Translations under genes and position numbers: made by a program | The notes under the pieces: model-generated | What the model was told of the DNA's origin: nothing | What the model saw: only the letters and a program-made list of their open reading frames with translations | Database searches by the model: none | Part shown: positions 4,548-31,256 of the stretch, piece after piece | Position numbering within the stretch: position 1 is the stretch's first letter | Layout of the letters: each line of letters starts with the position of its first letter | From: Thermoflexales bacterium | GTDB lineage: Bacteria; Chloroflexota; Anaerolineae; J036; Brachytrichaceae | Reading direction: 5' to 3' | DNA length: 64,000 bases | Assembly: GCA_025057935.1 (NCBI GenBank) | Contig: JANWUW010000071.1 | Coordinates: forward strand, 1 to 64,000

Positions 4548-6238
4548 GCCGTGAGGTCCACGTATCGGAACGGCGCGCGAATGGTCGCCACTGTGCCGCG
4601 CGCATCGCGCCGCAGCGTGAACACGCCGCGCAGGTCCTCGCGCACCAGCATCTCGACAATGTTCAGCCCCAAGCTGTTGGAAGGCAACTCGCCGATGCCA
4701 ACGCCGTCGTCGCGCACCTCCACCTCTAACTCGCCGCCGAGGTCGATCAGGCGAATTTCGATGCTGCCTTGGCTGCGCCCGGGGAAGGCATGCTCAATCG
4801 CGTTTTGCAGCAGCTCGTTCACGCACAACGCCAGCGCCGTCGCTGCGCGCGAGCTAAGGCGCAGCGCATCACCGCACACTTCGATGGAAAGCGCTAGGTC
4901 CGGGCGCGTCATGCTTGCGCGCGTGAGCTGAGCGACGCGCATGAGCACGTCTTTGACGTTGACCAGCCGCAGACCCTCTTGGGCGAGCGCGTCGTGCACC
5001 GCAGCGATGGTCATGATGCGGTTGATGCTTTCCTGGAGCAGCTCCTTCGCCGACGGTCGGTGCTCGGCTTCATGGAGCTGCATTTGGAGGAGCATGACCA
5101 CGTTCTGCAGATTGTTCTTCACGCGGTGGTTCATCTCGCGCACGATGGCGGCGTTGCCGATTAGGTGCGCGTTTTCGATGGCGAGCGCGATCTGGTTCGC
5201 CAGCGTCGTGCACAGCGCGATCTGCGCCTCGCCAAAGCCGCGCCCATCACGCGACCACATGTTGAGCAAGCCAATCAGGCGCTCGCGCACCTTCATCGGC
5301 ACGCACAACAGCGTGTGCAGCTCGGCGCGCGCCGCCCACTGCCCCAACTCTCCCTCAAGCGCCTCATTCGCGCGCTGCACGATCACTGGGTCGCCGCGTT
5401 GAAGCTGGACTTGTTGCGTTTCGAGGAGCGGCATTGCATTGAGCATCCACGCTGGTTCAGGGGGCGCATTCTCCTCAGCATCCCAAACGGCGCGCGGTTG
5501 ATAGGCTTGCGCAGCTTCGTCGAGCAGTAGCACTGAGCAGCGCTGCGCGTTGACCGCGCGTGCGCCCATCTCGGCGACGACGCGCAGCGTGTCATCGAGG
5601 TAAAGCGGCGCGATCACTGCGCGGCTCACCTCAGCCACGGCTTGAAGCTCGCGCATCTTGCGCTCACTTTCTTCTTGGAGCATCGCGCGCTCCAGCAACC
5701 CAGCAACCACCTCGCCGATCAGCGACACGAACTCGATCTCCGCAGGTGTCCAAGTGTGGCGGCGATAGGTCTGCACGTTCATCGCACCGATCACGCGATC
5801 TTGGCTGACCAGAGGAACAGCCATGAGCGACTTGAAGGGCCTTTCGCGCGTGTCTGGGATCTCGTGGAAGCGCGGGTCACGTTGCGCATCACGCACAGCC
5901 ACCACTTGCCGATGCTGAGCCGCCCATCCCGTAAGCCCCTCGCCCATGTTCAAGTAGCTGTGATCCACCGCCAGTGGAAACAAACCGGTCGTCGCCTTGA
6001 GGATGAGGCGCTGGGTCTCCCGCTCGAGCAGGTAAATGGAGGTAGAGTTCACGCGCATGACGCGCGTGGTGGTCTGCGCGATGCGATTGAGGATGGTGCG
6101 CAGATCGGCGGTGGCGTTCACCGAGAGCAGAATCTCGCGCAGCGCAGCCAGCTCCTTGCGCGTGCGCTGAAGCGCTGTGCGCAACGCCAACGTGCGGGCG
6201 TCGGCACGCCTTGTTTTGCTCCGAGCAGTGCTGGGCAC
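4544..6238 (-). CDS. GAF-GAF sensor histidine kinase (HisKA_2 type)
   Basis: This 564-residue protein has no membrane segment. An N-terminal coiled stretch (about 1-45) is followed by two GAF domains (about 45-185, with [17 protein letters not shown], and about 205-355, with [17 protein letters not shown]). A short HisKA_2 dimerisation helix follows, with phospho-acceptor His371 in [14 protein letters not shown] HATPase domain ends the protein ([21 protein letters not shown]). The HRVKNNLQ form is typical of HWE/HisKA_2 kinases, which are often cytoplasmic light, redox or small-ligand sensors. The ligand is unknown: no chromophore Cys-His motif of a phytochrome is seen. GTG 6238 is used, with a TAGAAC -10 ending 6 bases upstream. 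No response regulator is adjacent. Confidence 0.9.
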
Positions 6239-6244
6239 AGTTGT

Positions 6245-6250
6245 GTTCTA
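6245..6250 (-). promoter_or_regulatory. -10 element for the GAF histidine kinase gene
   Basis: TAGAAC on the minus strand ends 6 bases before GTG 6238, predicting a leaderless message. It lies 50 bases from the divergent -10 of the sigma gene. Confidence 0.45.
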
Positions 6251-6299
6251 CCACAAAGCGATTGGAAAAGGGGCAGCACAAGCGACGCACGCAGCCGCC

Positions 6300-6305
6300 T
6301 ACAAT
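6300..6305 (+). promoter_or_regulatory. -10 element for the ECF sigma gene
   Basis: TACAAT ends 13 bases before GTG 6319 and lies downstream of the longer ATG/TTG alternatives. This supports the GTG as the real start. Confidence 0.55.
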
Positions 6306-6318
6306 TGCCTTGCTGCCT

Positions 6319-6921
6319 GTGAGCGAAACCGAAAGCGATCTCGTTCGCCGTGCTAAAACTGATCGCGAGGCGTTTGGCTTGCTGTACGAGCGCTACGTCA
6401 CCGCGATCTACCGCTACGTGTTTTATCGCGTCGGCAACGTGCAAGACGCTGAGGACCTCACAGCGCGCGTGTTCCTGCGCGCGCTGAACCACATTCACCG
6501 CTACGACGAGCGCGGGCTGCCCTTCTCAGCGTGGCTCTATCGCATCGCGCACAACGTGGTGGTGAACTTTCACCGCGATCAGCGCCGACACCCCTCGCTC
6601 TCGCTCGAGGAGGTAGCCGAAGATGTCGAGCGCCACCCCACAGCTGCGACGACTGACGAAGATGCCGAAGCCGTTGACCAAGCTTTTGACGCGGCACGCG
6701 CGCGCGCGCACTTGCTGCGCGCCATTCGCCATCTCCCTGAGGAGCGGCAGCACCTGCTGGTGCTCAAGTTTGTGCAAGGGCTCTCCAACGCCGAGATCGG
6801 CGCAATCATGAATCGAAGCGAGGGGGCGGTGAAGTCGCTGTACCATCGCACGCTGATTCAGCTGCGCGCGCTGATGGAGCAGCTCGAGCGTGAAGCCGGT
6901 GTTTCAGCAGACAAGCCATGA
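6319..6921 (+). CDS. ECF-type RNA polymerase sigma factor
   Basis: This 200-residue sigma-70-family factor has only regions 2 and 4. Region 2 includes FGLLYERYVTAIYRYVFYR and the AEDLTARVFLRAL helix, then PFSAWLYRIAHNVV. Region 4 is LPEERQHLLVLKFVQGLSNAEIGAIMNRSEGAVKSL, with a clear helix-turn-helix that binds the -35 element. Size and layout are those of extracytoplasmic-function factors. The frame is open to ATG 6211, but that would lie upstream of the TACAAT -10 at 6300-6305, so GTG 6319 is chosen. The next gene starts on its stop (ATGA), so the two are translationally coupled. No classical zinc anti-sigma (HxxxCxxC) follows; the 76-residue product is the best candidate partner. Confidence 0.9.
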   Translation: MSETESDLVRRAKTDREAFGLLYERYVTAIYRYVFYRVGNVQDAEDLTARVFLRALNHIHRYDERGLPFSAWLYRIAHNVVVNFHRDQRRHPSLSLEEVAEDVERHPTAATTDEDAEAVDQAFDAARARAHLLRAIRHLPEERQHLLVLKFVQGLSNAEIGAIMNRSEGAVKSLYHRTLIQLRALMEQLEREAGVSADKP

Positions 6922-7148
6922 GCACTCGCTTAACCGAAGCCGATATTGCCTGGTTGGAAGCGCGTTTGCGCGAGGCGTTTGCGCCTGTGGTGCCGCGCGC
7001 GGAGTTCGTCAGAGCTGCGCGCCAGCAGTTGATGCAAGCTCCCTCTCCTCCTTCAGCCCGCGCTGCACCTCCAACAGTGTTGCTTGCAACGGTGTTGGCG
7101 CTGCTCTCGCTTGTTGGAGTGCTCTGGTTCCTCCGGAAACTGCGTTAA
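6918..7148 (+). CDS. Small single-pass membrane protein, possible anti-sigma partner
   Basis: This 76-residue product is not a family I recognise. Residues 1-40 are charged and predicted helical (TEADIAWLEARLREAF, then FVRAARQQLMQ). A short Pro/Ala-rich linker follows, then one transmembrane helix (TVLLATVLALLSLVGVLWFL) and a basic tail RKLR. The basic tail suggests, by the positive-inside rule, a cytoplasmic C-terminus, although the orientation is not certain. Its ATG overlaps the sigma stop by 4 bases, so it is made with the sigma factor. Anti-sigma factors are commonly membrane-anchored and encoded directly after their ECF gene, which makes that role plausible but unproven. The histidine kinase gene starts 14 bases downstream. 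Confidence 0.7.
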   Translation: MSTRLTEADIAWLEARLREAFAPVVPRAEFVRAARQQLMQAPSPPSARAAPPTVLLATVLALLSLVGVLWFLRKLR

Positions 7149-28390: not shown

Positions 28391-29155
28391 TCAAGTCAAA
28401 GCGCCATCGCGGCTGCCCTCTGCCAACAGTTCGCGCACGCGCGCCACGAGGTACCCGAACGCTGGCTCACTTTCCACTGCCCACACGCGCGGTCGCGCAA
28501 GAGGGACACGCACTTCGCCAACAGGATGGCCGGGGCGCGCGCTGCTCACGATCACGCGATCAGCGATGAAGATCGCCTCGCCGATGTCGTGCGTCACCAT
28601 CACCAACGCCATGCCGAATCGAGTGGCGAGGCGGTCAACAAGCGCAGTGAGGCTTTCGCGCGTGAGCGCGTCGAGTGCGCCAAACGGCTCGTCAAGTAAG
28701 AGAAGCGGCGGCGCAGTGATCAGCGCACGCGCTAGCGCGACGCGCTGCGCCATGCCGCCGCTTAGCGTGTGCGGCTTGGCATGCTCGAACCCGCTCAAGC
28801 CCACCTCTTGCAAGAGCGCGCTCGGGTCAAGCGCGCGCCGACCGCGCAGCGCACGCATCTCAAGCGGAAGCGTCACGTTTTGCAACACAGTGCGCCAAGG
28901 TAGCAGCGTCGGCTCTTGAAACATCAAGCCAATCGCCGCGTTTGGCTCTTCGACGGGGCGACCCTTGAAGCACACGCGCCCCTCAGTAGGGCGGAGCAAC
29001 CCAGCGAGCACACGTAACAACGTACTCTTGCCACATCCGCTTGGTCCGACGATCGCCACGCGCTCGCCGGGTTGCACCTGAAGCGAAAAGCGCCGCAGCG
29101 CCTCAACGCCGTTGGGGTAGACGTGAGTGACGTCCTCGGCGACGAGCAAGCTCAC
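28391..29155 (-). CDS. ABC transporter ATP-binding protein of the FMN-riboswitch importer
   Basis: This 254-residue cytoplasmic ATPase is of the SsuB/TauB/ThiZ type. Walker A is GPSGCGKST, the Q-loop is [11 protein letters not shown], the signature [15 protein letters not shown], Walker [13 protein letters not shown] and the H-loop [11 protein letters not shown] 29155 overlaps the stop of the substrate-binding protein by 4 bases (GTGA); longer starts would run far into that gene. It energises the importer encoded by the two upstream genes. The operon-level riboswitch points to a flavin rather than to nitrate, taurine or thiamine precursor, which the family alone would also allow. Confidence 0.92.
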
Positions 29156-30141
29156 GGCAGCAGCGCGTTTGTGAAGTACTCGTTCGGGTCGCGCAGTGCG
29201 CTGATCTGCCCCATCTCGAGCAACGTGCGTTGTGTGAAATCCCACGCCTCAGCAGACGAAGCGCCAAGCCGCTGCGCTTTCATCAAGTCGATCGTTGCCA
29301 GCAGCACGCGCTTTTGCACTGGGTCTTCGGGCGAGAGTCCTTCAACGAACTTGGCGCTGATGCGCAAGGCAGCGTCGGGATCGTTGATGGTGTCCTGAAT
29401 GCCGCGCAGCAGCGCGCGCACCATCCCGCGTGCCAACGCTGGGCGCTCGCTCAATGTGCGCTCGTTGGTGACCAAGCCGTTCGCCACCAGGTTCACTGCA
29501 TCGCCGACGAAGAAAACGTTGACTGGGTAACCACCCGCTTCCAACACGATCGGCTCATTCACAATGTAGCCTACTGCTGCATCCACTTGCCCTTGCTGCA
29601 CGGCTGCGACTTGGGTGAAGCCAATCTCGCGCACGTTCACATCCTGCTCGTTCAAGCCGTTCACTTTAAGGAAAGCGCGCCAGCCAACGTAGGTGGCGCC
29701 GAAGAAACCCGGCAAACCTACCGTCTTGCTGCGCAAATCAGCAGGCGTGGTGATGCCCTTCTCTTTCAAGCTGAAGACAGCGATGGGAAACTTTTGGTAC
29801 CAAGCAGCGATGTACTTCACGGGCAAGCCCTGCGCGCGCGCCAACACCACTTGCTCACCGCTCGCGACTGTGAACGGCAGCTCGCCTGCGCCGACCAGCT
29901 TCATGCCGTCGGTCTCGAAGCTGTAATCGAATGAAAGCGCGATGCCTTCCTCGGCGAAGTAACCGCGTTCGACCGCGACGTAGAACGGCGCGAATTGCAC
30001 GTTGGGGATGTAGCCCATCGGCAGCCGAATCTGCTCGACGGCTGGAGTGGGTGGCGGCGCGGGCGGCGGCACAGGCACAGCACAACTCGCCAACGCCACC
30101 GTCAGCACGAAACCAACAAAACTCGTCTTCTTCCAGCGCAT
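29152..30141 (-). CDS. ribY: Riboflavin-type ABC transporter substrate-binding protein (NMT1/THI5-like)
   Basis: This 329-residue lipoprotein has a signal peptide with lipobox ALASC, a Pro-rich linker, then an NMT1/THI5-like periplasmic-binding fold (LPMGYIPNVQFAPFYVAVERGYFAEEGI). ELPFTVASGEQVVLARAQGLPVKYIAA is the usual following segment. Such proteins bind thiamine precursors, nitrate, sulfonates or, in the RibXY system, riboflavin. The upstream FMN riboswitch makes a flavin ligand the best reading. ATG 30141 has a good Shine-Dalgarno (GAGGTG) about 9 bases upstream. It lies 46 bases after the permease gene and overlaps the ATPase gene. Confidence 0.85.
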   Translation of the reverse strand: MRWKKTSFVGFVLTVALASCAVPVPPPAPPPTPAVEQIRLPMGYIPNVQFAPFYVAVERGYFAEEGIALSFDYSFETDGMKLVGAGELPFTVASGEQVVLARAQGLPVKYIAAWYQKFPIAVFSLKEKGITTPADLRSKTVGLPGFFGATYVGWRAFLKVNGLNEQDVNVREIGFTQVAAVQQGQVDAAVGYIVNEPIVLEAGGYPVNVFFVGDAVNLVANGLVTNERTLSERPALARGMVRALLRGIQDTINDPDAALRISAKFVEGLSPEDPVQKRVLLATIDLMKAQRLGASSAEAWDFTQRTLLEMGQISALRDPNEYFTNALLP

Positions 30142-30187
30142 ATCTCTGCACACCTCTCAAAGCAACTTCTGCGTATCAGCTACATCG

Positions 30188-30976
30188 TCAGCCCAGCAAC
30201 ACGCGGCGCTCTACAATACGCACGAGGGCATAGAGCGCGAGCGCCAACACAATGGTGACGATCACGCTGACCATGACGAGCGGCGTGTCGTAGGTGCCGC
30301 TGCCAAGGCTGACGAGGAACCCTAATCCACGACTGGCGCTGAGGAACTCCCCGGCGATGGCGCCGACCATGGAAAGCGTCACGCTCACGCGCAAGCCAGC
30401 GAACACAAACGGCAGCGCAGCGGGCAACTCCAGCTTTGTGAATGTTTCGAAGGCGTTAGCTTGCATCGCGCGAAAGAGATCGCGCAGCACCGCCGGCGCA
30501 CTGCGCAAGCCAGTCATGATGTTGATCGCCATGGGGAAAAACACCACCAGCGCGCACACCACGGCTTTGGCTAATGTGCCGTTCCCGAACCAGATGAAGA
30601 TCAGCGGCGCCACCGCCACAAACGGAACGCCCTGCGAAGCAATGACGAAAGGCGAAAGCAACCGCTCAGCCAATGCTGACTTCGCCATCGGCACGCCGAG
30701 GAGAAACGCTGCCAAGCTGCCCAGTATCAGCCCGAGAAGCGCCTCAGAGAGGGTGACAAGCGCGTGAAACAGCAGCGTACCGTCGAGAAGTTTGTGCCAG
30801 GCACGCACGAGCACTGCGGCTGGGCTGGGCAAGATAAACGGCGGATAATGCTGCGCGAGCCAGTGCCACGCAAGCAAAGTCGCGCCTAGGCTGATCAGGG
30901 GTGCCCAGCGCAGCCAACCTTCCAGCTTTGCTGGCGATGCTGGGCGCGTTGGCGCCCAACGTTGAGCAATATGCAT
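30188..30976 (-). CDS. ribX: Riboflavin-type ABC transporter permease
   Basis: This 262-residue inner-membrane permease is of the SsuC/ThiX type with about six helices. The coupling (EAA) loop is DLFRAMQANAFETFTKLELPAALPFVFAGLRVS. PSPAAVLVRAWHKLL at the N-terminus and SQGVPFVAVAPLIFIWFG are typical of this importer group. ATG 30976 is chosen: it falls immediately after the riboswitch terminator's U-tract, whereas the longer open frame would start inside the regulatory leader. It is the first gene of the ribX-ribY-ATPase operon controlled by FMN. Confidence 0.87.
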   Translation of the reverse strand: MHIAQRWAPTRPASPAKLEGWLRWAPLISLGATLLAWHWLAQHYPPFILPSPAAVLVRAWHKLLDGTLLFHALVTLSEALLGLILGSLAAFLLGVPMAKSALAERLLSPFVIASQGVPFVAVAPLIFIWFGNGTLAKAVVCALVVFFPMAINIMTGLRSAPAVLRDLFRAMQANAFETFTKLELPAALPFVFAGLRVSVTLSMVGAIAGEFLSASRGLGFLVSLGSGTYDTPLVMVSVIVTIVLALALYALVRIVERRVLLG

Positions 30977-30978
30977 AC

Positions 30979-31015
30979 AAAAAGCCCCGAAGCTTTCAAA
31001 CACGCGCTTCGGGGC
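30979..31015 (-). terminator. Intrinsic terminator in the FMN riboswitch leader
   Basis: On the minus strand GCCCCGAAGC (31015-31006) pairs perfectly with GCTTCGGGGC (30993-30984) across a 12-base loop and is followed by TTTTT (30983-30979). The permease ATG begins 2 bases further on, so the hairpin may also hide the ribosome-binding site. The left arm is complementary to the aptamer's own CTTCGGGGC. Confidence 0.85.
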
Positions 31016-31115
31016 AAGGCATAGCGAAAGCCAAAGTTCTTGAGAAGCGGAGAGCAAGGCGTAGCTCGCCTTCAAGGCTACGCCGAGCTTCACCGCACCT
31101 CGATCGTACGCTATG

Positions 31116-31238
31116 ACCGCCTTCTTTACATCCCGACTGTCACGGTCGGCCCCGGAGTTTCACCGGATCCTGCGTGCCTCTCAACACGCTCGTGGGCTAT
31201 ACCACCGATCGGGAATTGCACCCTGCCCCGAAGACGGT
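31116..31238 (-). promoter_or_regulatory. FMN riboswitch (RFN element)
   Basis: The minus strand reads as a near-consensus FMN aptamer: CTTCGGGGCAGGGTG, then AATTCCCGATCGGTGGT, TATAGCCCACGAGC, GGATCCGGTGAAACTCCGG, GGCCGACCGTGACAGTC and GGGATGTAAAGAAGG. P1 pairs ACCGTCTTC (31238-31230) with GAAGGCGGT (31124-31116), with one G-U pair. In this class FMN binding represses flavin synthesis or uptake genes. The window shows no rib biosynthesis gene, only an ABC importer downstream. Confidence 0.95.
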
Positions 31239-31256
31239 GTTTGTCATTTTGCTGCA

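Follow-up and report, generated by a model that had tools for sequence, protein, structure and literature searches.

How might a leader RNA ahead of a flavin-uptake operon in a Thermoflexales bacterium turn the presence of FMN into a decision on expression, and which flavin would that operon bring into the cell? The window, i.e., the whole analysed stretch of 64,000 nucleotides from contig JANWUW010000071.1, contains on its minus strand the only FMN riboswitch found in the source genome, with the aptamer at 31115..31239 (RF00050; cmscan 99.8 bits against a gathering score of 66.2 bits, E 6.1e-22, model positions 1-138 complete). According to the Rfam alignment and a count of its extension, P1 comprises nine pairs between its 5' strand (31230..31238, minus strand) and its 3' strand (31116..31124, minus strand). 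A linker of about 100 bases (31020..31115, minus strand) separates the aptamer from a 10-bp hairpin. All stretches on which the original prediction had been built were found on the minus strand where it had placed them, namely GCCCCGAAGC at 31015-31006, CTTCGGGGC at 31233-31225, the outer linker ends CATAGCG (31115-31109) and CGCTATG (31026-31020), and, inside the linker, the GGCGTAGC/GCTACGCC hairpin at 31084-31058. A promoter scan found no sigma-70-like promoter, and the inclusion of 31243-31239 in the transcript is putative. Judged from its sequence, the locus is very probably an FMN-OFF riboswitch ahead of a flavin-uptake operon, with FMN as the presumed ligand.

The downstream genes and the genomes compared

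Behind the riboswitch lie, all on the minus strand, a ribX-like ABC permease gene (30188..30976; PF00528 matched on a longer frame from 31093, probable start ATG at 30976), a ribY-like gene for an NMT1-type substrate-binding protein (29152..30153; PF09084, E 3.4e-48), and a ribZ-like ATPase gene (28391..29245; PF00005, E 4.4e-36, with the true start probably inside the frame). The longest frames of the latter two share 94 bases (29152-29245); the ATPase start probably lies deeper within its frame, unless the two genes are coupled in translation. This gene order is a RibXYZ-type layout. RibXY and RibXYZ are described as flavin ABC transporters of Chloroflexi, in which an FMN riboswitch likewise precedes the genes for a permease and a substrate-binding protein, next to an ATPase gene, and riboflavin uptake by RibXY of Chloroflexus aurantiacus was demonstrated through complementation (PMC4418817). 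By gene content and riboswitch the present operon matches RibXYZ, and transport is predicted. Among solved proteins, those closest in sequence to the binding protein are thiamin-precursor proteins (3ix1 ranks best, E 7e-25), a kinship that favours neither FMN nor riboflavin as the likely cargo.

Order and family comprise the same 28 genomes, and an FMN riboswitch is present in 24 of them, with 25 leaders in total. A permease homologue is present in 26 of the 28 genomes and lies downstream of 24 of the 25 leaders. Two permease homologues, L138 (genome G003) and L139 (G006), have no detectable FMN riboswitch; the gene upstream of each, which from its motif we take to be that of a small Rieske-type ferredoxin, runs in the same direction and ends just before the permease. 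Among the 25 leaders, L025 (contig C90 of genome G009) is a second FMN riboswitch and precedes an apparent ribD, not a permease; RibB and RibH are encoded on the same contig, the sole such case in the family, which may reflect acquisition or a stray contig. Tests of covariation and of the linker ends used 23 of the 25 leaders, L004 and L017 being left out because no hairpin was found in them automatically. Across the class, an FMN riboswitch is present in 145 of 199 genomes; 87 leaders outside the family were taken (the 27 best-scoring and 60 hand-picked, mostly one per genus), of which 78 were scored and nine were not located by the search motif.

The hairpin before the permease start codon

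The hairpin occupies 30984..31015 on the minus strand and has a GC-rich stem of 10 bp, a 12-base loop and an energy of -20.1 kcal/mol; a simple terminator scan with a loop limit of 8 does not call the site. It is followed by a T-run (30979..30983, minus strand; TTTTTGT, 6 T in 8 nt), two bases (G, T), and the ATG at 30976-30974. The right arm carries GGGG (30985..30988, minus strand), the probable ribosome-binding site, 8 bases before the ATG and at a similar spacing across the order; as CGGGG, the arm offers a modest ribosome site here. On contig C98 of the source genome, G000 (5738-7127), 16S rRNA was matched in two pieces, short of the 3' end of the model and near the contig end, and the 3' end of the 16S gene, with the anti-SD, falls outside this contig.

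In 23 of the 25 order leaders, GGG(G)/GAGG lies in the right arm, 7-9 bases upstream of the start codon; the exceptions in spacing are L017 (5-6 bases) and L018 (4 bases to the first ATG, 7 to the second). This agrees with the suggestion in the original prediction that the terminator may block translation too. The number of T in the eight bases after the stem differs between leaders, ranging from 2 to 6 in 23 leaders of the order; in L002, the nearest relative, the T-run is only TTT and is paired within the stem. Because the T-run is only five bases long here and TTT in L002, termination may be weak. These comparisons suggest a dual platform, in which the same hairpin may end transcription and hide the ribosome site, the latter role being the more constant across the order. 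Barrick and Breaker (2007, PMC2258182) describe a class of terminators whose 3' side contains the ribosome site, and the present hairpin, with a probable ribosome site in its right arm, shows no difference in kind.

Two other readings compete with the dual platform. It is a distinct possibility, tentatively entertained, that the switch is mainly translational, with the hairpin as ribosome-site sequestor and the T-run as an incidental spacer; the right-arm motif kept before the start across the order and the varying T content speak for this, but the present leader combines a 10-bp GC-rich stem with 6 T of 8, and at least four T occur in the six bases after the stem in 49 of the 55 class leaders whose left arm pairs with the aptamer edge. 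A transcription attenuator only, to which the nearness of the ATG would be incidental, is improbable: the stem and T-run of the present leader and the terminators found class-wide would suit it, but the GGGG-to-start spacing is near-fixed across the order.

Pairing partners of the left arm

The original prediction had the left arm pair over nine bases with the 5' edge of the aptamer (GCCCCGAAGC/CTTCGGGGC) as an antiterminator; this pairing is real and was underestimated. In the minimum-energy fold of the whole leader, 31243-31235 and 31233-31220 pair with 31020-31005 and 31003-30997, giving 23 pairs between CAAACACCG plus CTTCGGGGCAGGGT (31243-31220) and GCCTTGCCCCGAAGCG plus GTGTTTG (31020-30997). 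As delimited by this fold and the duplex, the 5' strand (31220..31243, minus strand; 31234 unpaired) contains bases upstream of P1, the 5' strand of P1 and the J1/2-P2 edge, and the 3' strand (30997..31020, minus strand; 31004 unpaired) contains five bases before the hairpin, the left arm and most of the loop. The duplex energy of -40.9 kcal/mol was not reached by any of 5000 dinucleotide-shuffled versions of the downstream part (best -35.7, mean -22.0 kcal/mol), nor by any of 5000 shuffles of the aptamer 5' edge (best -36.1 kcal/mol). The flank-loop part alone (31250-31234 with 31009-30994) was equalled by 282 of 5000 loop shuffles and is therefore weak evidence by itself; the comparison between leaders carries it.

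In that comparison (n=23), the aptamer edge paired with the left arm plus loop of its own leader at a mean of -27.1 kcal/mol, against -23.9 for permuted partners, and with the shared core cut away at -5.7 against -3.8; in both cases, 0 of 20000 permutations were as good. With one leader per genus, the median p was 0.008 (full) and 0.014 (core removed). The pairs covary with differing letters, e.g., GAGCTA/TAGCTC in L005, TCTGGT/ACCAGA in L003 and GCAAG/CTTGC in L014, or AGCGG/CCGCT in L006 against GCAG/CTGC in L015. Genera 2 and 8 and part of genus 4 show the flank-loop extension only weakly. A simple longest-helix test gave a weaker result, with p<=0.05 in 16 of 25 family leaders and 38 of 78 class leaders. 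Only seven of the 25 family leaders were picked out by a strict right-arm-mimic test (expectation 0.3), since the right arm in a large part of the order reproduces GGGG alone rather than CTTCGGGG. Class-wide, the left arm of the downstream hairpin pairs with the aptamer 5' edge in 55 of 78 leaders, where 4.3 were expected from shuffles; the flank-loop extension was undetected at this level (54 leaders; matched -2.27, permuted -2.11, 4438 of 20000 permutations as good). On these sequence comparisons, the antiterminator is supported, and extends beyond the nine bases originally predicted.

Without FMN, the emerging left arm and loop would pair with the aptamer 5' edge and the bases just upstream, and the resulting helix would dissolve P1 and release the right arm, leaving the GGGG ribosome site accessible, so that the operon would be made. 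With FMN, P1 and J1/2 would be locked and the left arm would pair with the right arm; the T-run could then release RNA polymerase, and the transcripts that escape would have their ribosome site buried. FMN would have to bind before the left arm emerges. This is the usual logic of FMN riboswitches, and the architecture is already known, also beyond the phylum. In work on the Bifidobacterium rib operon, which attributes the antiterminator model to Winkler et al. (2002), TTCAGGGC is the antiterminator and the P1 strands are anti-antiterminators (PMC7522473). The antiterminator element lies at the aptamer 5' edge there and at corresponding positions here; unlike in the Bifidobacterium operon, the antiterminator of the present leader extends into upstream bases and the loop of the hairpin, and the genes under control form an uptake operon.

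Minimum-energy folds of growing transcripts follow this course in part. P1 is formed at 3' ends 31112 and 31016 but gives way to the left arm from 3' end 31006, and by 30994 the flank-loop pairs are also in place; at 3' end 31060, however, a linker pairing is preferred over P1, which counts against the model. Forcing the terminator gives -118.1 kcal/mol, compared with -123.3 for the free fold, a cost of 5.2 kcal/mol that a nanomolar ligand could cover. When the full Rfam aptamer is enforced together with the terminator, the energy is -98.2 against -123.3 kcal/mol; this gap of 25 kcal/mol, which comes partly from the constraint itself since other pairs inside the aptamer are forbidden, also counts against the model. 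Because it exceeds any ligand's contribution, the switch would have to be kinetic, and a kinetic mode of action is described for FMN riboswitches in PMC7573352. The same study places the switching sequence of FMN aptamer structures at residues 6-11, including J1/2, at the aptamer 5' edge as in the present leader; those structures are of other species and of the aptamer without expression platform (PMC7573352).

A further helix, CATAGCG/CGCTATG, had been proposed to bring the aptamer next to the terminator; that it does so and belongs to the switch is, in our view, very doubtful. The helix has seven perfect pairs starting next to P1, stabilises the FMN-bound fold by 1.4 kcal/mol when forced, and keeps five of its seven pairs (CATAG/CTATG) in L002, where the linker has otherwise diverged; the sixth pair there is G.G, without compensation, and the third genus member (L014) has only five unrelated pairs at the site (p 0.158). 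Its excess over chance is marginal: such a helix would arise in the source leader with p 0.047 in a loose and 0.018 in a tight positional window, values that are uncorrected and belong to a helix picked by eye beforehand. Across the order, p<=0.05 was reached in two of 23 leaders in the loose window and again in two of 23 in the tight one (L001, 0.018; L016, 0.026; Fisher p 0.14). The docking claim therefore lacks support, with no covariation and no significance across the order, and the connector was dropped as a switch part after both windows (23 leaders) and the genus alignment. The inner hairpin at 31084-31058 sits in a poorly conserved part of the linker.

It is scarcely credible that the antiterminator match arises only because GC-rich arms resemble the conserved GGGGC core, which is common to all aptamers read in the comparison, since the part outside the core covaries among the order leaders, no shuffle matched the duplex, and pairing in the class far exceeds the 4.3 leaders expected.

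Flavin supply and the cargo of the transporter

The flavokinase domain (PF01687) was found in none of the 28 genomes of the order; all 10 bacterial controls were positive, as were 106 of 120 class genomes, and six of the 14 class genomes without it belong to the present family. The CTP-dependent (archaeal-type) riboflavin kinase (PF01982) was likewise found in 0 of 28 genomes, and FAD synthetase (PF06574) in all 28 (in the source genome, G000, on contig C84, L129). The RibF frame was read out in nine genomes from six of the eight genera. In these nine, RibF continues for 87-99 residues past the FAD-synthetase domain but, unlike two RibF proteins of the class, has neither the FPTAN and NIG.RPTF stretches nor the C-terminal part; in two of the nine, no Pfam flavokinase was detected even at E 10. 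RibH (PF00885) and RibB (PF00926) each occur in one genome, both on the G009 contig with the second riboswitch, and these two markers of riboflavin synthesis are missing in the other 27.

With the kinase domains absent and FAD synthetase kept, the cells should be able to convert FMN into FAD but not to phosphorylate riboflavin to FMN, as far as the kinds of kinase searched for are concerned. Either FMN would then be imported, with RibXYZ as the candidate, or a so far unrecognised kinase would exist. The fuller proposal, that riboflavin kinase and riboflavin synthesis were lost in the order, and that RibXYZ imports FMN so that the switch reads the transporter's cargo directly, is finely balanced and leans slightly towards doubt. 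In contrast to RibXY of Chloroflexus aurantiacus, shown to take up riboflavin (PMC4418817), the transporter in the present order may thus carry FMN. A literature search over largely open-access papers, judged mostly by title and the start of the abstract, recognised none as describing FMN uptake together with kinase loss. FMN is not generally known as a form of the vitamin that bacteria import.

The leader offers a readable case in which one hairpin arm would be shared by antiterminator, terminator and ribosome-site lock, with covariation. If the kinase loss holds in function, an FMN uptake system could be named and the whole order would depend on imported FMN, and if the switch indeed reads the cargo of RibXYZ, no enzyme would stand between uptake and signal.
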